Shown here: piece after piece, positions 7,642-25,354 of the stretch
Layout of the letters: each line of letters begins with the position of its first letter
How positions within the stretch are numbered: position 1 is the first letter of the stretch
NCBI RefSeq assembly: GCF_018709685.1
Contig: NZ_JABDHQ010000022.1
Coordinates: 1 to 34,024, forward strand
Length of the DNA stretch: 34,024 nt
From: Akkermansia muciniphila
GTDB taxonomy: Bacteria > Verrucomicrobiota > Verrucomicrobiia > Verrucomicrobiales > Akkermansiaceae
Direction: 5' to 3'
Notes under the pieces: model-generated
Databases searched by the model: none
What the model was told of the DNA's origin: nothing
Seen by the model: only the letters and a program-made list of their open reading frames with translations
Translations under genes and position numbers: made by a program

Positions 7642-8916
7642 ATGCCAGACGCTCGCTTTCAACCACTTCCCGGATTCCGTGACTTTGCCCCGGCGGACTG
7701 CGCCGTGCGCAACTACCTCTTTAACGCTTGGAAGAGGGTGGCGCACCGCTATGGATTCCTGGAATGGGAAGGCCCTACTGTAGAAGCCACGGAGCTCTAT
7801 CTTAAAAAGAGCGGAGGAGAACTGCCCACCCAGCTTTTCCGCTTTACGGACCAGGGTGGCCGGGATATTACCATCCGCCCGGAACTTACCGCCTCCCTGG
7901 GCCGCATTGCCGCCGCCTACCAGCGGGAATACACCAAGCCGCTCAAGTGGTTTGAAATAGGCTCCTGCTTCCGTTATGAAAAACCCCAGAAAGGACGCCT
8001 GCGTGAATTCTACCAGTTCAACGCGGATATTCTGGGGGAAGGTTCCGTCTGGGCGGACTCCGAACTGATTGCCCTGGCCATCGACTGCATGAGGGAGCTG
8101 GGCTTTACGCAGAACGACTTCATCGTGCGTGTCTCCGACCGCGAAGCCTGGATCAGGTTTGCCGCGGAACACGGCGTTCAGGAACAGGGCATTCCCGCCT
8201 TCCTGGGCATTGTGGACAAATTTGAACGTGACCGCCCGGAAGAATGCCAGCGCAAGCTGGACGCCTTCAACATCAGCCGCGGCGACCTGGTCGCCTTCAT
8301 TGAGAACCCGCCCGCCGGAGCCTCCGAACGCTACGACCTCCTGCTGAAAGACCTGGAAGCCCGCGGACTGGACGGCTATGTGAAGCTGGACCTCTCCGTG
8401 GTGCGCGGTCTGGCCTATTACACCGGGCTGGTTTTTGAAATCTTCGATACGAAGCGCAGCCTGCGCGCCGTGGCCGGAGGCGGCCGCTACGACACGCTGG
8501 TGGGCGCCCTCTCCAACAACGCGGTAGACATGGCCGCCACCGGATTTGCCATGGGAGACGCCGTCATCACCCACCTCATTGACCAGACCCCGCATGCCAA
8601 GGCATTGAAAGACGCCGCCCTGGCCGCAGCGGGCTGCGACGTTTTCCTGGTGCAGGCTTCCGAAAACCGCCGTGCGGAAGTGCTCTCCATCGCCTCCGCA
8701 CTCCGGGACCAGGGTTACAGCGTGGACCTTCCCCTTACCCTCACCAAGGTCAACGGCCAATTGCAGAAAGCCGCCAAATCCGGCGCGCGCGCGGCCCTGA
8801 TTGTGGGGGACGACTTCCCTTCCCTGGAACTGCGCGACCTGGGCGCGCGCGCCTCATCCTCCGTCGCTATGGACGACCTGTTTGACGCTCTGGCCTCCAT
8901 GACGGGCCGCGACTGA
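7642..8916 (+). CDS. hisS: Histidyl-tRNA synthetase
   Basis: This is a class II aminoacyl-tRNA synthetase that charges tRNA-His in the cytoplasm. At 424 residues it is of usual length. Recognised elements: the N-terminal GFRDF block, ITIRPELTASLGR, motif 2 around FRYEKPQKGRLREFYQFNAD, the histidine-binding signature GLAYYTGLVFEIF, and motif 3 around AVAGGGRYDTLVGALSNN with GFAMGD. The C-terminal part (DVFLVQASENRRAEVLSIAS onward) is the anticodon-binding domain. It is followed after 33 bases by aspS in the same direction; the two are probably one transcription unit ending at the terminator near 10.78 kb. Confidence 0.96.
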   Translation: MPDARFQPLPGFRDFAPADCAVRNYLFNAWKRVAHRYGFLEWEGPTVEATELYLKKSGGELPTQLFRFTDQGGRDITIRPELTASLGRIAAAYQREYTKPLKWFEIGSCFRYEKPQKGRLREFYQFNADILGEGSVWADSELIALAIDCMRELGFTQNDFIVRVSDREAWIRFAAEHGVQEQGIPAFLGIVDKFERDRPEECQRKLDAFNISRGDLVAFIENPPAGASERYDLLLKDLEARGLDGYVKLDLSVVRGLAYYTGLVFEIFDTKRSLRAVAGGGRYDTLVGALSNNAVDMAATGFAMGDAVITHLIDQTPHAKALKDAALAAAGCDVFLVQASENRRAEVLSIASALRDQGYSVDLPLTLTKVNGQLQKAAKSGARAALIVGDDFPSLELRDLGARASSSVAMDDLFDALASMTGRD

Positions 8917-8949
8917 TATTTCCCTCCCCTCCTTCCATTTTCAACAAAG

Positions 8950-10743
8950 ATGAACTCATACCGCACTCATACCTGCAGCGAATTGCGCGCTGCGAACATT
9001 GGCAAGCCGACCACCCTCATCGGCTGGGTAGACTCCGTCCGTGACCACGGCGGCGTCATATTTATCGACTTGCGCGACCGTACGGGCATCACCCAGGTAG
9101 TCTTTCACCCGGAAGTCAACCAGGACGTGGCCAGGGCCTCCCAGCAGCTCCGCTCCGAGGACATGATCCAGATTTCCGGCTCCGTAGCGGCCCGTCTAAA
9201 AACGGACACGGTGGACACCACGAATGCGGACCTGCCCACCGGGGAAATTGAAGTCTCCGCAGACACTCTGAACGTCATCAACAAGGCGGAAGTGCTCCCC
9301 TTCCAGCTGGACCGGGCCCTCTCCAATGAAGACCTGCGGCTCAAATACCGCTTTCTGGACCTGCGGCGCCCCGCCATGGTCCGCAACATGCAGATCCGCC
9401 ACCGCGTGACCAAAACCACGCGCGACTATCTGGATGAACACGGCTTCCTGGAAATTGAAACGCCCATCCTTTCCAAATCCACCCCGGAAGGCGCCCGCGA
9501 CTTCCTGGTCCCTTCCCGCCTGGCACCGGGCAAATTCTACGCCCTGCCCCAGGCTCCACAGCAGTACAAGCAACTGCTCATGGTAGCAGGCATGGAACGC
9601 TACTTCCAGATCGCCCGCTGCTTCCGTGACGAAGACCTGCGCGCGGACCGCCAGCTGGAATTCACCCAGGTGGACATTGAAGCCTCCTTCATCACGCCGG
9701 AAGACATCTACAACCTGGTGGAAGGCCTGCTCAAACGCGTGTATAAGGAAGCCCTGGACGTGGACATCCCCACCCCCTTCCCCCGCATGACGTGGAGGGA
9801 AGCCATGGATCAGTACGGTTCCGACAAGCCGGAACGCCGCTTCGGCATGAAGCTGACGGACGTCTCCTCCATCTTTGAAAACAGCGGCTTCAAGGTATTC
9901 TCTTCTGCCGTAAAAAATGGCGGCGTGGTCAAGGCCATTAACGCCAAGGGCTTCGGCTCCGCCTCCGTCGGCCAGATTGACGCCCTCACGAAAACCGCCG
10001 TGGAAGCCGGAGCCAAGGGCCTGGCCTACATCAAGGTGCGGGAAGAGGACTGGAGAAGCCCCATCTCCAAATTCCTTTCCGATGAAGAAAAGCAGAAGCT
10101 CACGGAAGCCCTGAACATTGAAACGGGAGACCTCGTTCTCTTTGCGGCCGGCCCGTGGGAACCCTCCTGCGACATCCTGGGCCGCGTGCGCCTGCAATGC
10201 GCCGACTTCATGGAACTGCTCAAGGACAACACGGAACGCGACTTCCTGTGGGTCATTGAATTCCCCCTGCTGGGCCGGGATGAGGAAGAACAGCGCTGGG
10301 TGGCCATCCACCACCCCTTCACCCGCCCCGTCAAGGAAGACGAGGAAAAACTGCTCAAGGGAGAACTCTCCGCAGACCTGCGCGCCCAGGCGTACGACGT
10401 GGTGCTTAACGGCACGGAACTGGGCGGCGGCTCCATCCGGATTCATGAACGCGACTTGCAGTCCGCCATGTTCAAGGCCCTGGGCATCACGGAAGAACAG
10501 GCCCGCGAACAATTCGGCCATATCCTGGACGCGTTCAGCTTTGGCGCTCCGCCCCACGGCGGCCTTGCCCTGGGCCTGGACCGCCTGGTCATGATGATCT
10601 GCAATGCGGAATCCATCCGTGAAGTCATCGCGTTCCCGAAAAACAACCGTGGAGCGGACCTGATGAGCGACTCCCCCGCCGCGGCGGAAGAACGCCAGCT
10701 GCGCGACATTCACATCCAGGTAAAACTGCCCGCTAAAAAATAA
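8950..10743 (+). CDS. aspS: Aspartyl-tRNA synthetase (bacterial type)
   Basis: This class II synthetase charges tRNA-Asp. The 597-residue length and layout are those of the bacterial type: an OB-fold anticodon-binding domain (LIGWVDSVRDHGGVIFIDLR), a catalytic core with motif 2 (RCFRDEDLRADRQLEFTQVD), an inserted GAD domain between about residues 290 and 420, and motif 3 (GGLALGLDRLVMM). TPEGARDFLVPSR is a further family block. Whether the enzyme is discriminating or also charges tRNA-Asn cannot be decided here. It is the second gene of the hisS-aspS unit. Confidence 0.96.
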   Translation: MNSYRTHTCSELRAANIGKPTTLIGWVDSVRDHGGVIFIDLRDRTGITQVVFHPEVNQDVARASQQLRSEDMIQISGSVAARLKTDTVDTTNADLPTGEIEVSADTLNVINKAEVLPFQLDRALSNEDLRLKYRFLDLRRPAMVRNMQIRHRVTKTTRDYLDEHGFLEIETPILSKSTPEGARDFLVPSRLAPGKFYALPQAPQQYKQLLMVAGMERYFQIARCFRDEDLRADRQLEFTQVDIEASFITPEDIYNLVEGLLKRVYKEALDVDIPTPFPRMTWREAMDQYGSDKPERRFGMKLTDVSSIFENSGFKVFSSAVKNGGVVKAINAKGFGSASVGQIDALTKTAVEAGAKGLAYIKVREEDWRSPISKFLSDEEKQKLTEALNIETGDLVLFAAGPWEPSCDILGRVRLQCADFMELLKDNTERDFLWVIEFPLLGRDEEEQRWVAIHHPFTRPVKEDEEKLLKGELSADLRAQAYDVVLNGTELGGGSIRIHERDLQSAMFKALGITEEQAREQFGHILDAFSFGAPPHGGLALGLDRLVMMICNAESIREVIAFPKNNRGADLMSDSPAAAEERQLRDIHIQVKLPAKK

Positions 10744-10760
10744 CCGGATTCTTTAAACTA

Positions 10761-13223: not shown

Positions 13224-13913
13224 TTACTTTTCCGGAACCGGATAGCCTGCCCCCTGAATGGCTCTTAATCCTGGAACGCTGGAGGGTTCCCAGGGAGCGC
13301 GCTTCAAATACCGGTGCAATATAAAAGTATCTTCCTTCCGGATGCCTTCCACGGATGTCCATGCATATTCTCCATATACCGTTCGGTGGGTCCGTGGGTC
13401 AAAAAACTCCACCAATGCCACAACATCACTCGAAGGGTGTTTAAGAGTACCGGTCCTTTTATCCACGGCATATTGATAGATGCCTTTGACGCCATGCACC
13501 ACAACCGTTGATCCCTTCGGCACGACCGGAAGACGGGCTCCTTTTCTCCAACTCTGTTCATCTTTCTGGTCCCACAATCCCTGAAACCTCAAGTATTGCT
13601 TAAAATCATCCCCATACAATTCACGCATATCCGGATTATAAATCACCGGGTAATAGCGCACATGCATATCACTTTGCAATTTCAATGGACGCTTCACATA
13701 ATCGCAATACGGCTTCTCCCCATTTAGATTGCGGCAGGCATAATAGGAAAAAACATGGGAGAAATTTTGTTCAGCCGTGTAATCTTCACAACACCATGTC
13801 TCCGGATTGAGCAGAAAATATCCTTCCGTTTGCTGCAGCCACTGGGAACAAGAACATAGCGTTATTCCGGCAAACGGTGCTAGCAACACTCTTAATCGGA
13901 AGAAAAACTTCAT
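13224..13913 (-). CDS. Putative lipoprotein of unknown function
   Basis: The likely start is the ATG at 13913 (MKFFFRLRVLLAPFAGITLC), 11 codons inside the longest frame, because it gives a classic lipoprotein signal: positive charges, a hydrophobic core and the lipobox-like LCSC. The mature part of about 205 residues is Tyr- and Cys-rich (NPETWCCEDYT, YYACRNLNGEKPYCDYV) and ends with a likely folded domain (VVPKGSTVVVHGVKGIYQYA, VALVEFFDPRTHRTVYGEYA). I know no family for it. It lies at the downstream end of the AT-rich array and may or may not belong to the toxin locus. Confidence 0.6.
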   Translation of the reverse strand: MKFFFRLRVLLAPFAGITLCSCSQWLQQTEGYFLLNPETWCCEDYTAEQNFSHVFSYYACRNLNGEKPYCDYVKRPLKLQSDMHVRYYPVIYNPDMRELYGDDFKQYLRFQGLWDQKDEQSWRKGARLPVVPKGSTVVVHGVKGIYQYAVDKRTGTLKHPSSDVVALVEFFDPRTHRTVYGEYAWTSVEGIRKEDTFILHRYLKRAPWEPSSVPGLRAIQGAGYPVPEK

Positions 13914-14113
13914 GGTTAACAACATCTTATACCATGTTACCAACATTTCCAGTAAAAAGGAAATGCCTTCAAATTTCCAATCATCTCTGAACCCAACTCT
14001 TTTTTCTCCTTATCCCCCTGCCGGATCACCACAAGTAGTCTCTCATATGGGCAACAAATACCGCCCTACAAAATTAATATCACATCCGAAGATTCTTCTT
14101 TCATAATAATATA

Positions 14114-14147
14114 AGATTCGCAGCAAGTTAATACCTGCTGCGAATCT
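14114..14147 (-). terminator. Hairpin downstream of the lipoprotein pair
   Basis: AGATTCGCAGCA (14114-14125) pairs perfectly with TGCTGCGAATCT (14136-14147) over 12 bp with a 10-base loop. It lies about 33 bases after the stop of the 152-aa lipoprotein gene and is followed on the minus strand by the AT-rich TATATTATTAT rather than a clean T-run. Nothing else was seen between 13914 and 14179. Confidence 0.6.
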
Positions 14148-14179
14148 ATAAATATCAACCTGTCAATCAGGAAGAAAAA

Positions 14180-14638
14180 TTATTGAAACGAATCTGTTAA
14201 AAAATAATTAGCCGTAAAAGGAGACAAATTTTGGCACTTGTTCCTCATTCTCTCATACAATTCATTCGCTTTTTCTGTCTTGGGAATAGATTGATCACCC
14301 ACAACATCCAACCAGGATGAATTGGCCGGTAAACGAGTACCGTGTTGCATGTACAAAACATTTACTCCATACTTTCTCGCCAACTGTGCACTGTATTCCG
14401 CTACATTCGGATGATCTTGAGGGCTCCATTCTTTTATTCCCATATTTATATACATGGAAGATTTTACATCATGCGCAAGGCGATTGCTATCCTCATTGAC
14501 TGAAGAAGAACGATATAATTGCTCCAATTTGCTGTACTTCTGGCCTAGTGTAGAGTTTTCTTTTATTTCGGAGGAACAAGAGATCAATCCTCCACATAGG
14601 CAAAAGAAACTTATTTTATATAACCATATATTGTTCAT
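14180..14638 (-). CDS. Small lipoprotein, paralog of the adjacent gene
   Basis: This 152-residue protein has a short hydrophobic N terminus and a lipobox, GGLISCSS, predicting a lipid-anchored protein after cleavage before Cys21. The C-terminal half shares a block with the neighbouring 147-aa protein: LARKYGVNVLYMQHGTRLPA here against LARKYGINLFYMQEGRKIPA there, followed by KTEKANELYERM against KTKGAQEIYEEQ. The pair is 11 bases apart and probably co-transcribed. The family is not known to me. Position downstream of the Rhs gene, in an array of small exported proteins, suggests an immunity or accessory role, but this is inference. Confidence 0.65.
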   Translation of the reverse strand: MNNIWLYKISFFCLCGGLISCSSEIKENSTLGQKYSKLEQLYRSSSVNEDSNRLAHDVKSSMYINMGIKEWSPQDHPNVAEYSAQLARKYGVNVLYMQHGTRLPANSSWLDVVGDQSIPKTEKANELYERMRNKCQNLSPFTANYFLTDSFQ

Positions 14639-14649
14639 AGTACATAATT

Positions 14650-15093
14650 TTAAATCTGATTTAATTTCCTGGCCATCCCATATTGTTCTTCATAAATTTC
14701 TTGTGCTCCTTTTGTCTTACGCACTGTTGGATCATGAATTGTTTCCATAAATATAAGGTAAGCAGGGATCTTTCTTCCTTCTTGCATATAGAACAAATTG
14801 ATTCCATACTTACGCGCCAACATATCCGTAAAGTCAGCCCCCCCAACCGGCATCTTTGTTTTTCCAGCCCAAAAAGGAACCAATGCTGCATAATATTCTT
14901 TCTTCAGTTGCCTATAGTATGCTTCATTCCGGGATTGCTCTGTATTCGTTAACCGAACATATAAATTTTCCAGCTTCTGATATTCTGGTGCCGTCGCTGT
15001 CAATTGATCCACGCTGGAAGAACAAGAAACGAGTATTCCTGTTATACCTGCTATGCACAAGCCATTTAAATAGGTAATTATTTTCTTCATCAT
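14650..15093 (-). CDS. Small lipoprotein, paralog of the adjacent gene
   Basis: This is a 147-residue lipoprotein: MMKKIITYLNGLCIAGITGI leads into the lipobox LVSCSSS. The mature protein resembles the 152-aa neighbour (see the shared LARKYG(I/V)N and YMQ block). Its ATG-ATG start sits immediately at the end of a decayed Rhs-core fragment (15097-15150), so the reading frame begins where homology to the Rhs gene stops. The insertion boundary therefore coincides with the start codon. Function is unknown; an immunity role is possible by position only. Confidence 0.65.
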   Translation of the reverse strand: MMKKIITYLNGLCIAGITGILVSCSSSVDQLTATAPEYQKLENLYVRLTNTEQSRNEAYYRQLKKEYYAALVPFWAGKTKMPVGGADFTDMLARKYGINLFYMQEGRKIPAYLIFMETIHDPTVRKTKGAQEIYEEQYGMARKLNQI

Positions 15094-15096
15094 TGT

Positions 15097-15150
15097 ACTC
15101 AGGAAGAACGGGATGCACGTGTTTTGGTACAGTGCATGCCTGCCTCATTC
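15097..15150 (-). pseudogene. Decayed Rhs-core fragment, copy R1
   Basis: On the minus strand this stretch aligns by eye with the Rhs coding sequence around 20635-20682: GGCATGCACTGTACC, AAAACACGTGCATCCC and CTGAGTACAATG against the Rhs segment encoding ASMDCTQNTSNPPLQGTW. It is in the same orientation as the Rhs gene and follows the T1 hairpin. It is too short and diverged to encode anything. Confidence 0.6.
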
Positions 15151-15154
15151 ATGA

Positions 15155-15183
15155 ACAAACACCAAGGCTCATATGAGCCCCGG
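15155..15183 (-). terminator. Hairpin terminator T1 after the 154-aa gene
   Basis: On the minus strand CCGGGGCTC-ATAT-GAGCCTTGG (15183-15162) forms a 9 bp stem with two G-T pairs, followed by TGTTTGTTC. It is about 45 bases after the stop at 15227 and is related in sequence and position to T2 and T3. Confidence 0.7.
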
Positions 15184-15226
15184 GTATAGTTATTTTGCAT
15201 CAAAATTCTAGATAAGTATATAATAT

Positions 15227-15691
15227 TTAATTTCTTTTGTTAACGGTAATTTTACTTTTATCCTTGTACATATCAAGCACTACAGTAATTACTGCATCAA
15301 TATATTCTCCCGCCGTATCAGATTTTGCATAATATATGAAACTTTTTCCCGGCATATTGACCGTTATTTCTTTTCTTTGCTGAAAATCAATCTTCGAACT
15401 TTTTACATTATTTATTAAATCATTCAATTTTGAAATAAATTCATTCGAATTTCCTTTTACATCAAATTCCAGTTTATCCTTGGAAGAATGGGCATAAATA
15501 TCAGGAATCATTTTTTTCACATTTATTGCATTACCATTTATTTGATAAAAATAATAATATGATGATGTACCTGGATCGACCACTCCCTTACAATGATAGA
15601 CATTAATTTCTTCCACCTCTCTTATGTTCTGACAAGAAACATTAGGAATTGAAGCTAAAATGATCAGCGCTATGATATTTTTAATTTGCAT
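15227..15691 (-). CDS. Exported protein of unknown function (154 aa), immunity-like by context
   Basis: The 154-residue protein starts with a clear export signal (MQIKNIIALIILASIPNVSC); the Cys could make it a lipoprotein, though Asn at -3 is unusual for a lipobox. The mature part is Lys- and Tyr-rich with no family I know. It follows the 284-aa exported gene by 75 bases on the same strand. A degraded copy of its 3' half lies at 18986-19165 just behind the Rhs gene, so this gene family has been placed at the Rhs 3' end at least once. Codon use is strongly AT-biased compared with the backbone. Confidence 0.7.
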   Translation of the reverse strand: MQIKNIIALIILASIPNVSCQNIREVEEINVYHCKGVVDPGTSSYYYFYQINGNAINVKKMIPDIYAHSSKDKLEFDVKGNSNEFISKLNDLINNVKSSKIDFQQRKEITVNMPGKSFIYYAKSDTAGEYIDAVITVVLDMYKDKSKITVNKRN

Positions 15692-15765
15692 ATTTCAGAT
15701 AATATTATTTTTTCTACAAAGATGCATCGTATCATTTCCTTAAATAATTCATGATGGGAAATTAA

Positions 15766-16620
15766 TCACCAACTTTGTTTAATAAATGGATCGTATTCCA
15801 AGCTTCCTATGTCAAAATGAGTTTTGAGATCATTTTCCTGAACGGTTGTATCACAGCCATAATCGATCAGATCATCCATCAGCCCTATCACTTCCCTCGC
15901 GGGTGTGCCTGGTACCGTAAAATCTCTAAAAGAAACACCAAATATTTTTGAATTCATTCCATAGTAAGAAAAGTATCCCGACGACATGAAAAATTCACTT
16001 AAAAGGAAAAATCCAGTGCTATCAATACCTTTGGAGGGCACTTGTAATTTCCAGAAACTCGTTAGGACCTTATAAATTGAATTCAAAACTCCTGTTGAAA
16101 TTGGATTTGAATATTCCTCTATTTCCCATGACGCTGATTTTAAATTCTTCCACTCTTTCACGAGCTCCATGAGAACCTCGGAATTTTTCTCTTCAAGCAG
16201 TTTCTCCTCCAAACATTTAATTTTCCCTCGGACGGCCAATTCAGAATACCATTTTTCCGATGAGCCGGGAACTTTCAAGTAAGGTTTCCAAACAAAAATT
16301 CTATTATTCTTAATAACTAAAAAAATGTATGATATTTCAGTATGTATACTTGCATAGAAAACGTCATACTGTCCATCACATTTTCTCAATATTTCTCTAT
16401 AAATATTTAAAGGAAGGCTTCCTGTCTCCAAGGCCGTATCATCAGAATAGGGTATGTAAGAGTATACTGATTTTTTCAATATACTCATATTATCATTTAA
16501 TAATTTTGCCCTGTCTTCAAAGACCTGCAGGCATATTGCTTCAAATTCTGCAGTAGACGCAGCAGAAGCATATTGAAAAAAAACACCAACAATTAATAAA
16601 TATAGTCTGTTCACAATCAA
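15766..16620 (-). CDS. Exported protein of unknown function (284 aa), intact copy of a duplicated gene
   Basis: The start is uncertain: the frame allows TTG at 16620 or GTG at 16614. Both have a GAGGA stretch nearby and both lead into the same signal peptide (NRLYLLIVGVFFQYASA), with cleavage after ASA. The mature protein is about 260 residues, Ser/Tyr/Phe-rich, with no recognised motif or membrane segment, so it is predicted to be periplasmic. A nearly identical but frameshifted copy lies at 17916-18771. The two differ by only a handful of residues over the last 225, so duplication is recent. It sits between composite elements T2/R2 and T1/R1 together with the 154-aa gene. Confidence 0.75.
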   Translation of the reverse strand: MIVNRLYLLIVGVFFQYASAASTAEFEAICLQVFEDRAKLLNDNMSILKKSVYSYIPYSDDTALETGSLPLNIYREILRKCDGQYDVFYASIHTEISYIFLVIKNNRIFVWKPYLKVPGSSEKWYSELAVRGKIKCLEEKLLEEKNSEVLMELVKEWKNLKSASWEIEEYSNPISTGVLNSIYKVLTSFWKLQVPSKGIDSTGFFLLSEFFMSSGYFSYYGMNSKIFGVSFRDFTVPGTPAREVIGLMDDLIDYGCDTTVQENDLKTHFDIGSLEYDPFIKQSW

Positions 16621-16810
16621 TCTATCCTCTTTTTTATAATTCTCATATGTATCCCTCCTGTTCCCCCTGCATTATATTCCATATGATAGAATACTACCAT
16701 CTCCCCTTTTAACTGTTGACATAATAATACCGCCAGACATAGCTACTTAAGAATTCGAATGTCTAAATCCCCGACTAGCAGCTTTTCTATCCGGACTAAA
16801 AATTAGAGAC

Positions 16811-16880
16811 GTCCCAGAGCTATTCATTCAGAAGGACGGGTGTAGGTGTTTTGTGCATAGAGTCCATGCTACCTCATTTA
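16811..16880 (-). pseudogene. Decayed Rhs-core fragment, copy R2
   Basis: This is the clearest of the three copies. GTCCCAGA (16811-16818) matches 20623-20630 in the Rhs gene, and TAGGTGTTTTGTGC (16843-16856) and AGTCCATGCT (16861-16870) match 20657-20670 and 20673-20682 in register with one or two small gaps. In the Rhs frame the aligned residues start SMD and end WD, with a stop between. The region between 16621 and 16810 holds no gene; it contains the upstream region of the 284-aa gene. Confidence 0.65.
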
Positions 16881-16884
16881 TGAA

Positions 16885-16912
16885 CAAAAACCGAGGCTCG
16901 TATGAACCTCGG
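16885..16912 (-). terminator. Hairpin terminator T2 after the 274-aa gene
   Basis: On the minus strand CCGAGGTTC-ATAC-GAGCCTCGG (16912-16891) folds into a 9 bp stem (one G-T pair) and is followed directly by TTTTTG. It is 39 bases after the stop at 16951. Stem changes relative to T1 keep pairing, so the structure appears conserved. Confidence 0.8.
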
Positions 16913-16950
16913 TTGATAGTTTATTTAACTAAGAGTATTCAGATTTTCAA

Positions 16951-17775
16951 TCATTCTTCTTCCAAAGCCATATCTTCATAGTAATGTAAATTACCAGATT
17001 CATTCAGAAAAGCATCAGGAAGATAATTCAAATAGTTCATTTCCTCATGACAAATACATCGGTTTCCTATCTCTTTCAACAAACGTTCTCTCAATGGTAA
17101 ATAATAATCCCAATAATCATACTCTTTTCCTCCGTTATTTCGATTGAAATGACGCCAGGATGGATATAGTTTTACAGGATGGCATATGTCCCCTTGAAGG
17201 CCTAGCGAGTACTGTGTAACATGATCAAATTTCAAAAAGAAATGTGTTGAGCGTTTTTCTGAAGCCATGAAAGATTTCCTTTTTTTAATTTGAGGCAGTA
17301 AATTCTCAATTACATTTTTTAATTTTCCCGCGCTGTCTTCCGTAAGCATCAAAATATATACTAGCCTTCCTGACTCAACATCTTCTTCATTTTCCAACAA
17401 ATAGACAGTACCAGAAAAACACCAGTTAGCACTTAACCCATACTGTTTCGCATCAACTTTAATCAAATAAATGGAAAATGCTGAATCAATTGTATATAAT
17501 TTCTTGAATTCCTTATCTTTCTCTATTATTTGTTCAAGCCCTTCAAGAAGGGCTTTCTGAACAGGTGAATCTTTACCCAGGATTAGTTGTATTTCAAATT
17601 CCGAACATCCTATTTTGTATCCAAACTTAATGTTCATTCCAGGAAGGTAATTCCAGTATCTATCTTTTTCCCTAATCATGCTAAGGTCTATATTCATACA
17701 GCATGCGTCTGCATAATTATCATAGGAGTTATATTTATCCCCATCCAGATATTCATATACGAGAATCTGGCGCAC
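16951..17775 (-). CDS. Unknown protein (274 aa), probably 5'-frameshifted
   Basis: The longest frame begins with GTG at 17775, just two codons after a stop, with no ribosome binding site. A better start lies in another frame at 17836 (see next feature), so this frame is probably the body of a longer gene of about 300 residues. There is no signal peptide, unlike the other array genes, and the sequence is acidic and Tyr-rich (YEYLDGDKYNSYDNYADACC, HYYEDMALEEE). No motif I recognise. It is followed by terminator T2. A cytoplasmic immunity-type protein is one possibility, from position and composition only. Confidence 0.6.
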   Translation of the reverse strand: MRQILVYEYLDGDKYNSYDNYADACCMNIDLSMIREKDRYWNYLPGMNIKFGYKIGCSEFEIQLILGKDSPVQKALLEGLEQIIEKDKEFKKLYTIDSAFSIYLIKVDAKQYGLSANWCFSGTVYLLENEEDVESGRLVYILMLTEDSAGKLKNVIENLLPQIKKRKSFMASEKRSTHFFLKFDHVTQYSLGLQGDICHPVKLYPSWRHFNRNNGGKEYDYWDYYLPLRERLLKEIGNRCICHEEMNYLNYLPDAFLNESGNLHYYEDMALEEE

Positions 17776-17836
17776 CTGTTAAGTTACTTCCATCATATTT
17801 CCGCACGGCAAACAAATAATCATATCTAAATTCCAT
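17753..17836 (-). pseudogene. Displaced N terminus of the 274-aa gene
   Basis: An ATG at 17836, preceded by GGTGTAAGA, opens a 27-codon frame reading MEFRYDYLFAVRKYDGSNLT then GAPDSRI before a TGA at 17755-17753. The adjacent frame continues VYEYLDGDKYNSY without interruption. Removing one base near 17759-17762 would join them into a single smooth protein, so I read this as a one-base frameshift near the 5' end. Confidence 0.55.
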
Positions 17837-17915
17837 TCTTACACCCAAGATTGGAGTATTCAATATCCTCCATTTACCGATTCTCTAAAAATTCATTATT
17901 ACTCAAAAAAATCAA

Positions 17916-18771
17916 CTACAAACTTTGTTTAATAAATGGGTCGTATTCCAAGCTTCCTATGTCAAAATGAGTTTTGGGATCATTTTCCTGAACGGTTGTA
18001 TCACAGCCATAATCGATCAGATCATCCATCAGCCCTATTACTTCCCTCTCGGGTGTGCCTGGTACCGTAAAATCTCTAAAAGAAACACCAAATATTCTTG
18101 AATTCATTCCATAGTAAGAAAAGTATCCCGACGACATGAAAAATTCACTTAAAAGGAAAAATTCAGTGCTATCAATACCTTTGGAGGGCACTTGTAATTT
18201 CCAGAAACTCGTTAGGACCTTATAAATTGAATTTAAAACTCCTGTTGAAATTGGATTTGAATATTCCTCTATTTCCCATGAAGCTGATTTTAGATTCTTC
18301 CACTCTTTCACGAGTTCCATGAGAACCTCGGGATTTTTCTCTTCAAGCAGTTTCTCCTCCAAACATTTAATTTTCCCTCGGACGGCCAATTCAGAATACC
18401 ATTTTTCCGATGAGCCGGGAACTTTTAAGTAAGGTTTCCAAACAAAAATTCTATTATTCTTAATAACTAAAAAGATGTATGATATTTCAGTATGTATGCT
18501 TGCATAGAAAACGTCATACTGTCCATCACATTTTCTCAATATTTCTCTATAAATATTTAAAGGAAGGCTTCCTGTCTCCAAGGCCCGTATCATCAGAATA
18601 GGGTATGTAAGAGTATACTGATTTTTTCAATATACTCATATTATCATTTAATAATTTTGCCCTGTCTTCAAATACCTGCAGGCATATTGCTTCAAATTCT
18701 GCAGTAGACGCAGCAGAAGCACATTGGGAAAAAACACCAGCAACTAATAAATACAGTCTGTTCACAATCAA
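17916..18771 (-). pseudogene. Frameshifted second copy of the 284-aa exported gene
   Basis: This is a near-identical copy of the gene at 15766-16620. The intact copy reads AAGGCCGTATC at 16430-16440, whereas here the sequence is AAGGCCCGTATC (three Cs at 18584-18586). The extra C breaks the frame after SYIPYSDDT, giving a 74-residue N-terminal piece (18547-18771) and a 225-residue C-terminal frame (17916-18593). The rest of the frame is still open, so the lesion is young. A sequencing or assembly error is possible but the homopolymer is only three bases long. The N-terminal piece keeps the signal peptide (NRLYLLVAGVFSQCASA). Confidence 0.85.
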
Positions 18772-18892
18772 TCTTTCTTTTTCATATAATTCTCATATGT
18801 ACCATCCTGCATTGTATTCATATGATAGATTACTACCATCGTTCCTTTCATTTGAATGCTAACCCCTGTCTAGCAACTTTTTCATCCGGACT

Positions 18893-18935
18893 ATTAAATG
18901 GATTGGAGGTATTTTGTGCCCAGTCCATGTCTGCC
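18893..18935 (-). pseudogene. Decayed Rhs-core fragment, copy R3
   Basis: TTGGAGGTATTTTG (18903-18916) is identical to 20654-20667 in the Rhs gene, and AGTCCATG (18922-18929) matches 20673-20680 at nearly the same spacing. Orientation is that of the Rhs gene. The sequence continues into the upstream region of the frameshifted 285-aa gene (18772-18892), where similarity to the Rhs gene fades. Confidence 0.65.
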
Positions 18936-18941
18936 TGATTA

Positions 18942-18974
18942 CAAACAAAACCCGAGGCCCCTGTTAGCCTCGGG
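18942..18974 (-). terminator. Hairpin terminator T3
   Basis: On the minus strand CCCGAGG (18974-18968) pairs with CCTCGGG (18957-18951), loop of 10 bases, followed by TTTTGTTTGT. It follows the decayed 154-aa-type gene and is the third member of the T1/T2/T3 set; its loop is longer than the others. Confidence 0.75.
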
Positions 18975-18985
18975 TTATAGTTTAT

Positions 18986-19165
18986 CTCACATTAAAATTC
19001 TTGGTAAGTATATGATATTTTAACTTCTCTTATTGACAGTAATTTTACTTTCATCTTTGTATATATCAAGCATCATATTAATCACTCATCAATATATTGT
19101 TCTAACCATTCAAATTTTATGTAATATATGGAATTTTTCTAGAATATTGATCGTTTCCCGTTATT
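18986..19165 (-). pseudogene. Relic of a 154-aa-type exported gene (3' part)
   Basis: This stretch aligns by eye with the 3' half of the intact 154-aa gene plus its downstream flank (about 15195-15370). Shared pieces include GGTAATTTTACTT-like and AGTAATTTTACTTT, CATATCAAGCA against TATATCAAGCA, and CATCAATATATT against the same. Gaps and stops remove any reading frame. It ends about 25 bases from the stop of the 183-aa gene, so it lies directly behind the current Rhs-immunity pair. Confidence 0.7.
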
Positions 19166-19189
19166 TTCAGATTTTTTTAAAAACAAGAT

Positions 19190-19741
19190 CTAGTTCTTTT
19201 TAACTTGTGTCATTATCTTATTGTAAAACCATTTTTGGAATTTTTTATATTCATCCAATGTCATAGTCTTTTTGATCTTATTATTATCGAATGTATAGAA
19301 ATCATGTATAATATTTGTATGATGATACTTTGTATCTTCAGTAATTCCAAGAGGATTACTTAACATTTCAGGATCAATCAATTCTTTTTCTATCAATTTT
19401 TTAAAAATACTATTCAATATATCAAATTGAACAAGATTTTCTCCATCAAATTCATATATTGAATTTATAATAACATTTCCCGTAATTTGATTTATAATTT
19501 CCTGTAAAAAAGGATCAAAAATAGATTTTTTGTTATCGTCTTTTCTTAAAATGGACATTTCAGCACTTAACGATGCAATATAGGATAATCTATCTACTTG
19601 TTCTTGATAGATTTGATTTTTATTAACATGCACTGAAGAATTGTATATAAATAATCCTCCTATCCAGATGATGTTAGTACACAGAAATACAATGGCTGCA
19701 CCCCTTATACTATATTTATTTATGATTTTATTTTTTTGCAT
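19190..19741 (-). CDS. Membrane-anchored small protein overlapping the Rhs 3' end; candidate immunity protein
   Basis: This 183-residue protein starts at an ATG inside the last codons of the Rhs gene, overlapping its stop by 22 bases, which suggests translational coupling. Residues about 13-33 (GAAIVFLCTNIIWIGGLFIY) form one membrane-spanning segment with a basic N terminus, so the remaining 150 Lys/Asn/Asp-rich residues should face the periplasm. No known family. A gene directly behind and coupled to an Rhs toxin tip is the usual place for the cognate immunity protein, and membrane anchoring fits a tip that may act on membranes. Function is inferred from context alone. Confidence 0.7.
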   Translation of the reverse strand: MQKNKIINKYSIRGAAIVFLCTNIIWIGGLFIYNSSVHVNKNQIYQEQVDRLSYIASLSAEMSILRKDDNKKSIFDPFLQEIINQITGNVIINSIYEFDGENLVQFDILNSIFKKLIEKELIDPEMLSNPLGITEDTKYHHTNIIHDFYTFDNNKIKKTMTLDEYKKFQKWFYNKIMTQVKKN

Positions 19742-20238
19742 TTATCGTCACATTCATTAAGTTTTTCCATATAAATTCTGTTAAGTTCATCCTGTTTTTT
19801 CTCCTCTAGCTTCCAGCCTTGAGGGACTTTATTAGCAATACCAAAACCATCCGTCAGTGTACTTCTTTGTCCAAAACTTCTACTAGTAACAGTGAATTCT
19901 CCGGTTATTGCACTGGTCGTCTCTCCAGTTAAAACACTCATCATTTTACATTTACATACACATTTACATGTAAATTCTACAGTTACATGAACCTGCATAG
20001 AAGTTAAAATTCCTCCAGCTGTATTGAATGCCAATCCTGAAGCAGCTAGTCCAGTGACTGCAGTCTTTACCGTCTTAGGATATTTAGTATACTCATCAAT
20101 TACTGCTTCAGAAATTTTGCGGACACGTCTTTCAGGTTCCTTTGTTCCATAAAACTCCACGGTTTCCTCTATATCACTAGGATCTTGAGATAGAATACAA
20201 TATTCTCCATATCTCTCTTCTTTAGATTTAAAAGAAAG
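19720..20238 (-). other. Variable toxin tip of the Rhs protein
   Basis: The last 172 residues follow the core motif. They contain a charged first part (ERRVRKISEAVIDEYTKYPK), a long weakly hydrophobic Ala/Gly/Val stretch (19978-20073, AVTGLAASGLAFNTAGGILT), then a cysteine cluster CKCVCKCK (19945-19968), a Ser/Thr-rich beta-like part and a charged tail with CDDKCKK. I recognise no nuclease, deaminase or ADP-ribosyltransferase motif. The hydrophobic stretch permits a membrane-acting toxin, which is only a hypothesis. Confidence 0.6.
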
Positions 20239-23200
20239 TCCTAAATATTCATAAATTAATATAGGATTGTTTTTTACAAAACCATATAGATTCCACCCTC
20301 CGTTTTCTTCAATTGGATCCCTGGAAATCCACCTTCCATCCTGCGGATTATAATGCCGATAATTGTAATAGATCAGGCCCAAGTCTTCTTCCCAGTATTC
20401 GCAGGAATAGCGGAACGGCATCGTTGACGTCCAATTCCCTTCCTCTTTGAGAGTTTCTCCATAGGTTGTGTATTCAAACTTCGCCTGCCGAGTTCCCGAA
20501 GAGTCAAACAGAGCGCTTACACTTTTGAGCAGGTCATGCGCTATGTACCGGGTAGAGGACACCCCCCTGTCCGCGTTATGTGTGCACATTGCCAACACAC
20601 GCGTTGCCTCCGGTTCCACAGGGTCCCAGAACCATGTACCCTGCAAGGGAGGGTTGGAGGTATTTTGCGTGCAGTCCATGCTTGCAACCATTAAGTATCC
20701 CCTATACACGAATCTGGTGCGTTTGGTCAAGGTGTTTCCATCATATTCCAGTTTTTCCATGCGCCGTCCAAGACAGTCATACACACATTCCACCTTTTTG
20801 CTTCCTTGTGTAAAGACCACTGGACGATTATCCGCATTATACTGGACAGCCCAGACTCCTGTGGAAGTTTTTACACTGGTCTGATTGCCATCGGTATCGT
20901 ATGTAGGTGTGAAGATCATACCGGAATGTGCCGAGCTCTCATACAGGCTCAGTTTGTTGCTATCATAAGAACTAGAAGCTCCACGTCTGACTGTAGCCAC
21001 ACGGTTACCAATGTTGTCATAGGTATAACTGAAGGAACCACCCGGACTCATCATATCTTCCGCCAATTCTCCACGCGCATTGTAGCCATATGTATGACGG
21101 CGCGAAAGAGTGGAGGAGCCTACATAATCTTCCCGTATAGAGGGACGCTGCATATTGTCCCAGGTATAGGCATGCTTAAGTAGAGGCTCAGAGGAAACAC
21201 CTTTTACATAGGCCAGGGACGAGACCAATGGAAGATTGGCATGGAACTCCGTTTTTCGGATCATTTCATTCGGATAGGTTAGTTCGTTCAGCCAACCTGT
21301 ATTTATATCATAGCCGTAAGTGAAGGATTTTCCATTAAGCGACACTACAGAAAGACGATCCAACGTATCATAACTCAATGAAACCTCCTGCACCGCCGTC
21401 CCATCCAGGGATAGTGCATAACCTGACGGACGCCCTAAAGAGTCACGCGAATAGGATAAGGTACTATCTACCAACCAATGGGAAGTTTCGGAGGCAACAT
21501 CTTCAAAACCGGAGTATTCCATGCTCCTGGAGCCGGAAGCATCCTGTATCGTGGCTATACGGTCTCTCTCATCATAGGTAAGGGATACGGACGGAGTTCC
21601 ATCACTATGTGTTATAGAGACTAATTTGCCTATAACTTCATCATACCGGTAAACGGATTCCACGCCCCGGGACTGCCTTCGTGTTACAAGACGCTCCCAT
21701 TCATCAAAACTATAAGAGGTTCTGGTACCGTCTGCATAAGTCTTATCCAATAAAAAACCGCTTACGTGATCATAGTTCCAGCGTGTTACATCGCCTCCGG
21801 ACTCTGGAACCGTATCCAGAATCCCATCAGGGGAACGATACGTGTAAAGCGCCACAACATGATCGCGGTCATCATATTCCCACTTCATCGGCTGAACGGC
21901 ACTTCCATATTGACAAATCAACCGGTTGCGGGAATCATACTCATAATATTTCTTTTTACCATCTGGAGTAGTCACGCAACTGGGAAGCTCGGTTACACCA
22001 TCATATGTAGTGACGGTTATCTGCCCATTTTGGTCTGTTCTCTGAATTTCTCTTCCAACAAGGTCATACTCAATGACCATGCTTTTTCCACGCGCATCCT
22101 GAATGGTAAGCGTATTTCCGGAAGAACCATAAGTACGTTTGTACTTGGTAATAGTGCCATCCGTTTCCTTTTTCCGGACAATATCTCCATTTAGAATAAC
22201 CGTCTCTTCCTCTTTATCACACCCATTCCTTCCCCTTAGAATACGGATATTCCCGCTCTCATTGTACGTTTTTTCCCAGGACCATCGTCCATATACATCC
22301 TTATGAAGTGTCAGGGAAACCAAAGACGAACTTTTACGGGAAACCAGTTCATAAGTATCCTCAGTCACATCGGAAGCATCCTGTCTGGGAAGAGTCTCCC
22401 TGGAGACCTTGAATACCATCTGGGAGGCTTCCTGAGGAACTCCGGATGGCACCACAGATAAAAGATGAAAGTACGTTTCAAACAAGCGGTCTCCGGGAAG
22501 GGTTGCATCCTCTGTAGACCACACCCTTCTGCTGAGGCGCAGATTGCCTAATTCATCATATTTGTACGTATAGTTGACGCTATCATCTCCGGTCCATTGC
22601 GCTACCTGTCCCTTTTCATTATACATGGTGAGATTTCTCGTGCTGATACCATAACCCGTTTTAGGAGAAATAGTTGCTTTCTCAACCATTCTAAAACGCC
22701 CACCACCATCTTCTACGGTGCTTTCCACTCTTACCCGACAATCAGGATCCAAATGGGCATTTTTTCTGATCCCAACATCCTCATTCGCCTCATACGCATA
22801 ATAACGTCCTTCCTGTCCCGTGCCGGATTCCTCCGCTACCAATCCCGACGGAAAAAGCCGGGTGGACAGGGTTGAACCAGTAAATGTAGTTTCTGTAGTC
22901 GTAAGACCGTCCGGAGAATAGGAATATGAAGTTAAACGCCCCAATTCATCAGTTCTTGAAATGATACGTCCCAATATATCATATTCATTTACTACATTGT
23001 TAATATGACTCCCCATGGAAGTAGTGATTGAAAGAATTCTTCCTGCGCCGTCATAAGTAAAATTCGTAACCGTATCGGGACAAGCAGCCGTCATTTCATC
23101 ACCATTCCAACTTTCTACAGGAACAGCAGCGTCCCGTTCCATGCGAACCAAACGCTTAACCCCATTATAAGTATACCGCGTTTGCAGCCCTCTTACATCC

Positions 23201-25260
23201 GTCTCCCACAAAGGACCGGCACAGCTCCACTCAGCAGAAGAATAAAGTCCATTGGCATAATCCGTACGAATTACCCGGTGAGATTCATCATAAGTCATCT
23301 GTTTAAAATCAACAGAAACAAAATTTCCCAATACATGGACCAGATAATCCGTCGCTATTTCATTACCGTTTTCTGCATAATAATGAACGGTTCTCGTAGA
23401 CTTTCCAGATACAATTCCATGCTCTCCTTGCAGTGTTTCCGTACATTTCCATAATGACTGATAATCAGAACACAGCGCATATTCATAATGAATTTCCGTT
23501 CCGTCAATTTCTTTTTTCTTTTTTATTTTCCCCTGTGCATAAACACAGGAAGGATGATTCACATACCATTCCGTTGATGCAGAATTGGTAGGTCTGGTCT
23601 GTCCACACCCGGTTTGAGAAGTTGTCTTTGATGCAGTCTCACCTGAATTTGAATAAACATTTGAAATAGCATACATTTGCACCGTCTTTTCACCATTGCT
23701 CAAATTCGCAACTTCCCGTATCACCCGCCTGTCATTAAATTTCTCAGTAGAATAAGTATAACTAATTTTCTTCTGAATGTTTCCATACCACGGCTCCGTC
23801 CGTTGAATCACGTTCCCGTTGGAATCATACTCCATCTCCACTACGGAACCGTCCGGGCGCGTTTCCCTGATGCGTTTGCCATAATTGGGGGAAGAAGGAT
23901 CACTGCCGTATCCGTATGTCCATGTCCTTTCCAGCGGGGTTTCATATCCTTCCGTGCGGGATAGAAGGACGTCTCCGTACAAACGGCGCTGGTACACTTC
24001 CTTCTCTGCGGAGCACAGCACGGCGTTTTCGGTTCCCGCTACACCGCTGTATACATACTTGAATTTTTCCTTTTTGTCCGTGTAATAGCCTCCCGCCACC
24101 ATGGACTGTCCGTTAACGTCCTTGGCTATCATGTTTTCATGGCCGTCCGCAGGGCGGCATCTGGTGACGATGCTGATGGCGTCTTCTCCCTCGCCTTTCA
24201 CCAGGGTCAGATCATCCGGGTAAAGGCCTGCGCGCCATTCACTGATAAAACCGCCCGGTTCTTCAATGCGCAATGTCTTCAGCATCATCTGAGTCACCTC
24301 CGGATTTTCTTCATCCACGGCACGGGCGATCATCGTCTCCGTATCCGAGAACGTCCAGGACAGCTTCCAAGTCTTGATGGGAACGGCTCCATTGCGGATG
24401 ATATACATTCCGTCGTTGCGCCGTCCCTCCACGTCTGCGGGGGCATACCATTTGATGTTCTGCACATCGTTCAGGTCCAGCAATCCGTCCGCCTTGTTCC
24501 ACACCTGTTTCAGCATGAATAGGGAAAGCGCATTGAACGCTTCTACCGCGCTGTTGGGCTCGTCATAGGCATCCTGCCGGACTACCTGAAGTTCCTCAGC
24601 CAATTCCGCAAAGGTGATTTTCACGCCGAGCGGCGTCACGATATGGTCAAATACGGCGGAATTGGGACGGAAGCGCATGGTCATGCCGCTTTCCTGAACT
24701 TCTTCCAGATAGGAAATGCCATCCACGGTAACGCGCCGCATCCTGTCCTGGAACATCTGGGTACCGCCAAGCACCTCTGCCCCGGAAACATTTGGAGAGG
24801 CAAAGCTGTAATAGCGCGGAAACCCTTTTTCCGTCTTCACCACCGCCCGGGAAACGTCTTCCGGTTCTTCCGGACGGCTGATGGACGCATTGGTGGTTTC
24901 AGTCACTTCCAGACGGCGCTGGGAAATGTGCTCGTACTGAAAGGCGGTCCCCCAGCATAACCCGGCATCCATCATGTTCAGGTTCAGCATCAGGCGGCCT
25001 CCACTCAATTCTGGCCATTTGGGAAAACGGCCGAATTCAATGGAGAAGTCCACACTGTTGTTGTTCGTATTTCCGGTACCGGAGTCTCCTTCGGAACACG
25101 GGCATGGGTATTCCGTCTCCGGCCCTATGGGAGTGACGGGGTACCAGGTATTGGGCCACGGCATCGGGGACGGTTCATCGTTGGAGACGAATGTCACGGG
25201 ATGGCTCGGCATTCCGCCGGGTTGTTCCGGAGCGGATAACTGATTATCAATTTCTTTCAT
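19720..25260 (-). CDS. Rhs/YD-repeat polymorphic toxin with variable C-terminal tip
   Basis: The protein has about 1846 residues from ATG 25260 (MKEIDNQLSAPEQPGG), or 1869 from an in-frame ATG at 25329; neither start has a good ribosome binding site. The N-terminal 130 residues are Pro/Cys-rich with no signal peptide, PAAR or other known secretion domain. From about residue 480 on there are roughly twenty YD repeats (for example YDSNGNVIQRTEPW, YDILGRIISRTDELGRLTSY, YDNIGNRVATV), which in known Rhs proteins build a shell around the toxin. The Rhs-associated core motif YNYRHYNPQDGRWISRDPIE, then NGGWNLYGFVKNNP, closes it near 20239. The tip beyond is unrelated in composition. Base composition falls from backbone-like at the 5' end to AT-rich at the 3' end, typical of exchanged tips. 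Confidence 0.92.
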   Translation of the reverse strand: MKEIDNQLSAPEQPGGMPSHPVTFVSNDEPSPMPWPNTWYPVTPIGPETEYPCPCSEGDSGTGNTNNNSVDFSIEFGRFPKWPELSGGRLMLNLNMMDAGLCWGTAFQYEHISQRRLEVTETTNASISRPEEPEDVSRAVVKTEKGFPRYYSFASPNVSGAEVLGGTQMFQDRMRRVTVDGISYLEEVQESGMTMRFRPNSAVFDHIVTPLGVKITFAELAEELQVVRQDAYDEPNSAVEAFNALSLFMLKQVWNKADGLLDLNDVQNIKWYAPADVEGRRNDGMYIIRNGAVPIKTWKLSWTFSDTETMIARAVDEENPEVTQMMLKTLRIEEPGGFISEWRAGLYPDDLTLVKGEGEDAISIVTRCRPADGHENMIAKDVNGQSMVAGGYYTDKKEKFKYVYSGVAGTENAVLCSAEKEVYQRRLYGDVLLSRTEGYETPLERTWTYGYGSDPSSPNYGKRIRETRPDGSVVEMEYDSNGNVIQRTEPWYGNIQKKISYTYSTEKFNDRRVIREVANLSNGEKTVQMYAISNVYSNSGETASKTTSQTGCGQTRPTNSASTEWYVNHPSCVYAQGKIKKKKEIDGTEIHYEYALCSDYQSLWKCTETLQGEHGIVSGKSTRTVHYYAENGNEIATDYLVHVLGNFVSVDFKQMTYDESHRVIRTDYANGLYSSAEWSCAGPLWETDVRGLQTRYTYNGVKRLVRMERDAAVPVESWNGDEMTAACPDTVTNFTYDGAGRILSITTSMGSHINNVVNEYDILGRIISRTDELGRLTSYSYSPDGLTTTETTFTGSTLSTRLFPSGLVAEESGTGQEGRYYAYEANEDVGIRKNAHLDPDCRVRVESTVEDGGGRFRMVEKATISPKTGYGISTRNLTMYNEKGQVAQWTGDDSVNYTYKYDELGNLRLSRRVWSTEDATLPGDRLFETYFHLLSVVPSGVPQEASQMVFKVSRETLPRQDASDVTEDTYELVSRKSSSLVSLTLHKDVYGRWSWEKTYNESGNIRILRGRNGCDKEEETVILNGDIVRKKETDGTITKYKRTYGSSGNTLTIQDARGKSMVIEYDLVGREIQRTDQNGQITVTTYDGVTELPSCVTTPDGKKKYYEYDSRNRLICQYGSAVQPMKWEYDDRDHVVALYTYRSPDGILDTVPESGGDVTRWNYDHVSGFLLDKTYADGTRTSYSFDEWERLVTRRQSRGVESVYRYDEVIGKLVSITHSDGTPSVSLTYDERDRIATIQDASGSRSMEYSGFEDVASETSHWLVDSTLSYSRDSLGRPSGYALSLDGTAVQEVSLSYDTLDRLSVVSLNGKSFTYGYDINTGWLNELTYPNEMIRKTEFHANLPLVSSLAYVKGVSSEPLLKHAYTWDNMQRPSIREDYVGSSTLSRRHTYGYNARGELAEDMMSPGGSFSYTYDNIGNRVATVRRGASSSYDSNKLSLYESSAHSGMIFTPTYDTDGNQTSVKTSTGVWAVQYNADNRPVVFTQGSKKVECVYDCLGRRMEKLEYDGNTLTKRTRFVYRGYLMVASMDCTQNTSNPPLQGTWFWDPVEPEATRVLAMCTHNADRGVSSTRYIAHDLLKSVSALFDSSGTRQAKFEYTTYGETLKEEGNWTSTMPFRYSCEYWEEDLGLIYYNYRHYNPQDGRWISRDPIEENGGWNLYGFVKNNPILIYEYLGLSFKSKEERYGEYCILSQDPSDIEETVEFYGTKEPERRVRKISEAVIDEYTKYPKTVKTAVTGLAASGLAFNTAGGILTSMQVHVTVEFTCKCVCKCKMMSVLTGETTSAITGEFTVTSRSFGQRSTLTDGFGIANKVPQGWKLEEKKQDELNRIYMEKLNECDDKCKKIKS

Positions 25261-25354
25261 TGTTTTATTGTCATTGACGCATCTGCCGGAAAGGAGGGAA
25301 ACGCCGCCATGGATTTTCCCCGGCTTCATTCCCGACAGATGCTTTGGGTTAAGT

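Follow-up and report, generated by a model that had tools for sequence, protein, structure and literature searches.

Decayed Rhs core fragments among orphan genes of Akkermansia muciniphila as very probable leftovers of displaced Rhs modules

Next to an intact Rhs gene of Akkermansia muciniphila lies an array of small genes whose spacers resemble one segment of the Rhs core, which raises the question of whether this likeness is real and by which process it came about. The window considered here is the whole analysed stretch of 34,024 nucleotides. Its Rhs protein carries YD/RHS repeats (RHS_repeat match at 3.6e-33 in the domain scan) and the RHS-associated core (TIGR03696, 70.5 bits versus a cut-off of 32.5), followed by a variable tip, and thus belongs to the Rhs proteins with an RHS-associated core. 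The adjacent gene is probably the immunity gene of the present tip; a tip related at 58% and a gene related at 53% are found together in the relative G004.

19720..25329, minus strand: intact Rhs gene, 1869 aa, Rhs_assc_core at residues 1620-1697, then the variable tip
20623..20690, minus strand: Rhs core segment (codons about 1547-1569) matching the three reported scars by letter check, alignments and profile
19190..19741, minus strand: gene next to Rhs, probably encoding immunity to its present tip

The initial annotation had assigned three spacers to this one core segment, all in the Rhs orientation, and its letters and positions proved correct: TTGGAGGTATTTTG is found at 18903-18916 and, within the Rhs gene, from 20654, AGTCCATGCT is present in both the 16.8-kb spacer and the Rhs gene, GTCCCAGA is likewise common to these two, and the matches of all three spacers run on the minus strand. 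In the pairwise comparison proposed there, each spacer was aligned with the whole 5.6-kb Rhs gene against dinucleotide shuffles (n = 500); the sense score was reached by 4, 13 and 0 of 500 shuffles for R1, R2 and R3, respectively. In antisense, R1 and R2 scored nearly as high (28 vs 30 points; 12 and 18 of 500 shuffles), and the antisense control of R3 was reached by 74 of 500. R1 and R2 thus barely exceeded their shuffles and antisense controls, and the pairwise tests alone are weak for these two of the three spacers. Among the 5610 bases of the gene, the three sense alignments all settled on a single place. When both strands of the whole window were scanned with a profile built from eight orthologous Rhs cores, matches of at least 5 bits were limited to the Rhs gene itself (707.8) and four fragments of the array, all in the Rhs orientation, with scores of 9.1-23.6 bits vs a top score of 3.7 bits among 200 array shuffles (sense strand), none of which reached the fragments; chance likeness is ruled out by this comparison. 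The profile matches of R1, R3 and R2 start at positions 202, 204 and 205, i.e., at codon about 1548 (SMDCTQ), so that the start point hardly varies, the lengths being 37-67 nt and the identity to the core low. The three reported spacers are decayed Rhs core fragments.

15094..15146, minus strand: scar R1, decayed core fragment (profile 202-255, 11.1 bits), reaching the start of the next gene
16807..16873, minus strand: scar R2, decayed core fragment (profile 205-271, 9.1 bits)
18899..18935, minus strand: scar R3, decayed core fragment (profile 204-240, 10.2 bits)
17746..17835, minus strand: fourth core fragment (codons about 1513-1547, 23.6 bits), ending about where the other scars begin

The fourth core piece goes beyond the three spacers first described, and so do the remnants of toxin tip 3' ends that lie among the genes of the array.

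18985..19155, minus strand: decayed 3' end of a second YezG-like gene (239-nt match at 18921-19155, 76% to the end of the intact copy)
18772..18898, minus strand: remnant of the 3' end of the JAB-type tip carried by the working Rhs gene of G009, decayed (96/126 aligned nt)
17916..18771, minus strand: orphan immunity gene copy with a 1-base frameshift (98.7% to the attached gene of G009)
16951..17775, minus strand: orphan gene, 274-aa frame, perhaps an immunity gene, possible true start 17697
16621..16806, minus strand: JAB-type tip remnant next to scar R2, a decayed 3' end (153/186 aligned nt)
15766..16620, minus strand: intact orphan immunity gene, 284 aa (97.5% nucleotide identity to the Rhs-adjacent gene in G009; dN/dS about 0.18)
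15227..15691, minus strand: YezG-like gene (Pfam E 0.0026; 18.4 bits, under the curated cut-off of 21.7)
14180..15093, minus strand: two small genes of 147 and 152 aa, related at 32%, at the far end of the array

The toxins of the array are lost and its putative immunity genes are conserved, one copy being frameshifted, with dN/dS of 0.13-0.18 for the 284-aa gene (three pairs) and 0.23 for the 274-aa gene (one pair); judged from sequence, the orphan genes may act in immunity. The 274-aa gene occurs in 3 of the 76 genus genomes, and the YezG-like protein is equally confined to 3 of 76, every time at this locus. The G+C content of 1-kb windows is 27-38% at 14-20 kb, 44-47% at 20-24 kb, and 46-66% at 0-14 and 24-34 kb. 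The segments 16766-16795 and 18861-18890 were considered as a core end (DGRWISRDP) and rejected, the comparison with G009 identifying them as the 3' end of the tip of that genome.

The origin of the fragments was approached through the same-species comparison, which consists of one genome, G009. There, the orphan genes of the window (97.1-98.7% identity) are placed directly behind the working Rhs gene, whose tip is Prok-JAB-like and whose final codons correspond to the tip remnants of the window, the decayed 3' end of this tip being held by two scars, R2 and R3. The window segments 16920-18850 and 15759-16807 match the G009 Rhs 3' end with its immunity gene(s) at 95.9% and 93.7%, respectively, and the sequence beyond the array is 98.3% identical. 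From codon 1200 the two Rhs genes agree at 96.6% until codon 1531 and at 73.5% thereafter (log-likelihood gain 83), the break preceding the scar start by 17 codons, about 50 nt. The view of the initial annotation that the scars record past module exchanges is borne out by this arrangement, with the core break about 50 nt off. The tip remnants are 76-82% identical to the G009 tip, i.e., 18-24% different, and thus exceed in divergence the synonymous sites of the adjoining genes (dS of 0.065-0.079 between the window and G009); the scars and the orphan genes are therefore not of one age, which speaks against a simple displacement history.

On the whole, the spacers are very probably leftovers of Rhs modules displaced by C-terminal displacement. 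Incoming DNA bringing an Rhs core end, a new toxin tip together with its immunity gene, and a terminator would recombine with the resident Rhs core, and the resident tip and immunity gene would be shoved downstream, where core and toxin parts would undergo deletion and decay and the immunity genes would be retained, probably because they protect against neighbours still using the old tip. Repeated rounds would yield the order terminator, core remnant, (tip remnant) and retained immunity gene, the core stretch being short through loss of the remaining core and of most of the toxin. Homologous recombination would be the driver of such exchange. The window array would have arisen from a G009-like attached state, or, conversely, a front module may have disappeared from G009 and an older one been taken up again.

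The core pieces are preceded by terminator-like hairpins.

15162..15183, minus strand: hairpin of scar R1 (RNA fold -16.5 kcal/mol, z -4.25)
16889..16914, minus strand: hairpin of scar R2 (RNA fold -18.5 kcal/mol, z -6.4)
18949..18976, minus strand: hairpin of scar R3 (RNA fold -24.9 kcal/mol, z -5.9)

The hairpin is homologous in all five scars that were aligned, and in three genomes the scar starts cluster at one core position, to within about 25 nt. A hairpin search allowing at most two mismatches matched at this Rhs locus only, and the Rfam search gave no match. The 239-nt YezG-like match mentioned above takes in the R3 hairpin as well. The initial annotation had regarded each scar as the product of its own recombination at this segment, a view that the common hairpin does not support: a single boundary copied along with the modules is more likely, and the near-constant scar start is best explained by a boundary made once and then copied. 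The common start would thus represent one old terminator-core boundary handed on with the modules. Plain displacement predicts a G009-like core piece in R2 and R3, since both adjoin a G009-type tip; however, of the eight alleles, the G009 core gives the lowest score with R1, R2, R3 and the remnant in G004, and the second lowest with the remnant of the relative G008. With four of the five scars least like the G009 core, the core pieces probably arrived with the incoming DNA, or else the G009 core end has since been replaced.

Other processes might produce parts of this picture. Tandem duplication inside this genome, with no serial import and with the scars as decayed copies of one duplicated core end, would fit the two 97.2% identical window copies of the 284-aa gene as well as the one homologous hairpin in every scar aligned. 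It is nonetheless unlikely, as the copy nearest to the Rhs gene resembles the G009 gene (98.7%) more than it does the second window copy, the orphan genes differ between modules, and the present core end is about 27% different from the same-species allele, which suggests import. The narrow range of scar starts behind one hairpin, together with the fourth fragment ending about at the scar start as if a gene and terminator had been inserted there, might rather point to a site-specific, integron-like insertion point formed by the hairpin and core start, where a recombinase adds gene cassettes. Such a site is very improbable, given that the start points of extra core copies range from about codon 1038 to 1567 in other Rhs loci of Akkermansia, that no recombinase family was found in the 10 window proteins scanned, and that homologous hairpins favour common descent.

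The hairpins in all three spacers could also suggest kept regulatory elements (terminator or promoter) with an incidental core likeness. However, in G008 the same spacer boundary runs on into about 320 nt of decayed core (304 bits; 293/329 positions identical to the working core of G008 itself), in G004 the likeness spans 143 nt, two of the three spacers adjoin tip remnants, and promoter-like sites in 14000-20000 are not in excess (27 found vs 28.9 expected). A functional-element reading of the spacers is hardly credible and was rejected on the G008 and G004 alleles, being largely refuted by G008.

The distribution of the fragments agrees in part with displacement, the preferred explanation. 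For E values not above 0.001, the composite element was confined to this Rhs locus and its orthologues, and the occurrence at loci unrelated to Rhs that would have spoken against the initial annotation was not seen at this level; the search up to E = 1 adds short partial matches, giving 38 of 76 genomes in all, and strongly decayed copies escape it, R1 and R2 themselves being absent from its results. The G004 match in one element search is the working core. Less in favour of displacement, significant remnants (E below 0.001) are present in 4 of 8 orthologous loci, the stretches searched being unequal, and with the core of the window, a distant query, no clear extra core copy turned up at four further Rhs loci of the same genome. 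In its favour, among 12 other loci chosen for several core matches, 8 have core direct repeats of at least 400 nt at 84-97%, the pattern of core fragments of differing length that almost match the working core, as is typical of the published arrays (PMC2935791).

The composite scar had been taken as undescribed. This does not hold, because C-terminal displacement has been described for enterobacterial rhs, where the account of 2009, in its accessible part, reports fragmentary core and tip downstream of the intact gene and derives them from displacement (PMC2935791). As in those arrays, the intact gene is followed here by a GC-poor stretch with core and tip fragments in the same orientation, and the displaced module is attached in a related strain (G009, at the 95.9% and 93.7% given above). 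The accessible part further describes fragments with frameshifts or stops, a core fragment with no obvious tip in two E. coli strains, and core fragments of varying length, those of Serratia being almost identical to the working core; in contrast, the Akkermansia scars are short and heavily degraded, and a common hairpin precedes their almost uniform starting point (PMC2935791). Displaced effectors with old immunity genes kept in a row are also known from the T6SS immunity arrays of Vibrio cholerae, which consist of effector-immunity modules of T6SS clusters, and whose description, as far as its available text extends, does not mention an Rhs core scar (PMC5361080). Toxin-less orphan immunity genes lie downstream of the working Rhs pair of Serratia Rhs1, where protection was tested (PMC10539506, available text), whereas the Akkermansia array is known from sequence alone. 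Orphan cdiA-CT/cdiI modules similarly keep varying amounts of the parent gene ahead of the toxin part, but there the parent is CdiA, the border is VENN, and the toxin parts are usually retained (PMC3150448, available text). The literature on Akkermansia and Rhs held no title about this locus among the matches listed. The array is a well-preserved case of a process known from other bacteria.

A further tentative, rather doubtful suggestion is that the terminator-core boundary was made once, when a gene with its terminator was inserted near codon 1547 of a core remnant, whose left half would be 17746-17835, and has since served several Akkermansia species as a ready-made right homology arm for adding modules at the same core position. 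If true, a tip could be inserted with the old one left in place and with no need for the circular intermediate that the 2009 account proposed, and core pieces unlike G009 in front of G009-type tip remnants would be accounted for. The locus extends the history of Rhs toxin displacement to Akkermansia, with toxin remnants decaying beside conserved orphan genes, and, through its same-species pair, allows one module to be compared directly between its displaced and its attached state; it is also a place at which strain collections could serve to map the second crossover of tip displacement.

Decayed pieces of one Rhs core segment are present in three intergenic spacers of the downstream array, which extends leftwards from the Rhs gene to about 14.2 kb, with the letter matches that the initial annotation had described, and the best sense match of all three in pairwise alignment against the whole gene was the same 30-60 bases. 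Under dinucleotide shuffling the likeness stood for the scar near 18.9 kb, R3 (0/500 shuffles reached its score), and was weak for R1 and R2 taken singly (4/500 and 13/500, respectively), for which antisense alignments scored nearly as high as sense. Because the pairwise tests were weak for two scars, the core ends of the orthologous Rhs genes were combined into a profile; 8 of the 76 genomes of the genus have such an orthologue, with the core query matched at 72% identity or higher. Run over the whole window on both strands with a threshold of 5 bits, this profile matched the Rhs gene plus four fragments, which all lie in the array in sense orientation and one of which is absent from the initial annotation; the weakest fragment scored 9.1 bits vs. 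a top score of 3.7 bits in shuffled arrays (n = 200, sense strand).

Rhs gene and the core fragments found by the core profile
19720-25329, minus strand: Rhs gene
15094-15146, sense to the Rhs gene: core fragment R1
16807-16873, sense to the Rhs gene: core fragment R2
17746-17835, sense to the Rhs gene: fourth core fragment
18899-18935, sense to the Rhs gene: core fragment R3

In all five scars aligned (R1, R2, R3 and those of two relatives, G008 and G004) the core piece is directly preceded by a hairpin that is homologous among them and has a T-rich tail; folding z-scores are -4.25 to -6.41, and the three window hairpins were also found in the terminator scan. Across the 76 genomes the hairpin pattern with up to two mismatches, which does not capture the hairpins of R1 and G004, these being more diverged, occurs at three places, all of this locus (R2, R3, G008). 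The scar element searched as DNA at E ≤ 0.001 matched this locus and G008 only, the G004 match being its working core, while a search up to E = 1 also returned short partial matches, with 38 of 76 genomes in all. Another strong terminator-like hairpin is located at 14114-14147 of the window, and the stretch around it (14085-14193) matches at 89% a stretch directly behind the working Rhs pair of G008.

The nature of the spacers is explained by two relatives, G008 and the conspecific G009 (loci L037 and L036, whose coordinates run in the Rhs-gene orientation). In G008 the same hairpin and core start lead into about 320 nt of core with frameshifts, which shares 89% identity with the working core of G008 itself. 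In G009, genes found as orphans in the window stand immediately downstream of the working Rhs. Window 16920-18850 corresponds to the end of the G009 Rhs gene, the 284-aa immunity gene and the 274-aa gene (95.9%), and 15759-16807 to the Rhs end and the 284-aa immunity gene (93.7%); the tip of G009 has a match to Prok-JAB (28.7 bits against a cut-off of 25). Since the window modules match the G009 Rhs end and immunity gene, R2 and R3 are composites of the hairpin, a core piece, the decayed last part of a JAB tip and then the putative immunity gene; R1 is without a tip remnant and extends up to the next gene. The fourth fragment covers codons about 1513-1547, its end lying near the beginning of the other scars; the 274-aa gene and then a hairpin come after it. 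Fragment and gene are found in G009 and G008 as well. The fragment has the appearance of a left core half cut off by a gene and a terminator, at a junction that is heavily decayed. In G009 an IS1595-family transposase (Pfam 9e-43) lies in an insertion at L036 about 7881-10760, between the 274-aa gene and a terminator remnant; an 8-base direct repeat, read by eye, flanks the insertion.

Identity to G009 is 97.5% and 98.7% for the two window copies of the 284-aa gene (dN 0.012, dS 0.065 for the intact copy; the copy nearest Rhs has a 1-base frameshift) and 97.1% for the 274-aa gene (dN 0.018, dS 0.079), whereas the remnants of the tip next to the 284-aa copies retain just 82% and 76%, a contrast consistent with toxin loss and immunity retention. 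However, the remnants are more diverged than the synonymous sites of the adjoining genes, a difficulty for the retention reading, and therefore the orphan genes would have been homogenised later or the remnants would be older. A gene at 13224-13946 of the window may be an even older orphan immunity gene, because it shares 44% identity with the gene immediately downstream of the working Rhs of G008.

The core pieces ahead of the JAB-tip remnants should resemble the core end of G009 if they were once that tip's own, but its core gave the lowest score of the eight alleles for R1, R2, R3 and the G004 remnant and the second lowest for the G008 remnant, the window pieces scored being short (37-70 nt). 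Since the scars do not resemble the G009 core, either the core piece formed the right end of the incoming module and entered with it, or the core end of G009 was later replaced. The window and G009 Rhs genes are mostly 92-100% identical per 120-nt step up to codon 1520 (one step 88%) and 69-80% beyond it, followed by unrelated tips; a change point fits best at codon 1531 (support interval 1529-1531; 96.6% before vs. 73.5% after). The scars begin near codon 1548 (1541 in G004), so that the two alleles have different core ends, with the join about 50 nt away from the scar start. Other orthologue pairs switch at about codon 1626 (twice), 1589 and 1669 (weakly supported). The window gene has another mosaic border at about codon 520, a long way from the tip, where the identity of L037-L040 and L042 (other species) to it falls from about 81-95% to 38-69%.

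At 14 other loci of the genus, chosen for several core matches or short frames, the extra core copies begin anywhere from about codon 1038 to 1567, these being approximate local alignment starts, some near contig ends. When 12 of them (L089 and L093 omitted) were compared with themselves, eight contained direct repeats of the core, each ≥400 nt and 84-97% identical; three had longer repeats at 70-76% and one a 169-nt repeat at 93%. Displacement is thus widespread in the genus and its starts vary, and because of this variability the fixed scar start is a peculiarity of this locus, for which the best explanation is a single boundary that would have been copied along with the modules.

No title on the terminator-core composite as such was found in the open-licence literature. 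Core and tip fragments behind rhs genes, and displacement as their origin, were described in Enterobacteriaceae by Jackson et al. 2009 (PMC2935791). Effector loss with immunity genes kept is described in Vibrio cholerae (PMC5361080), and for Rhs of Serratia there are orphan immunity genes that lack their toxins (PMC10539506). The finding adds another bacterial group to an already known kind of array.
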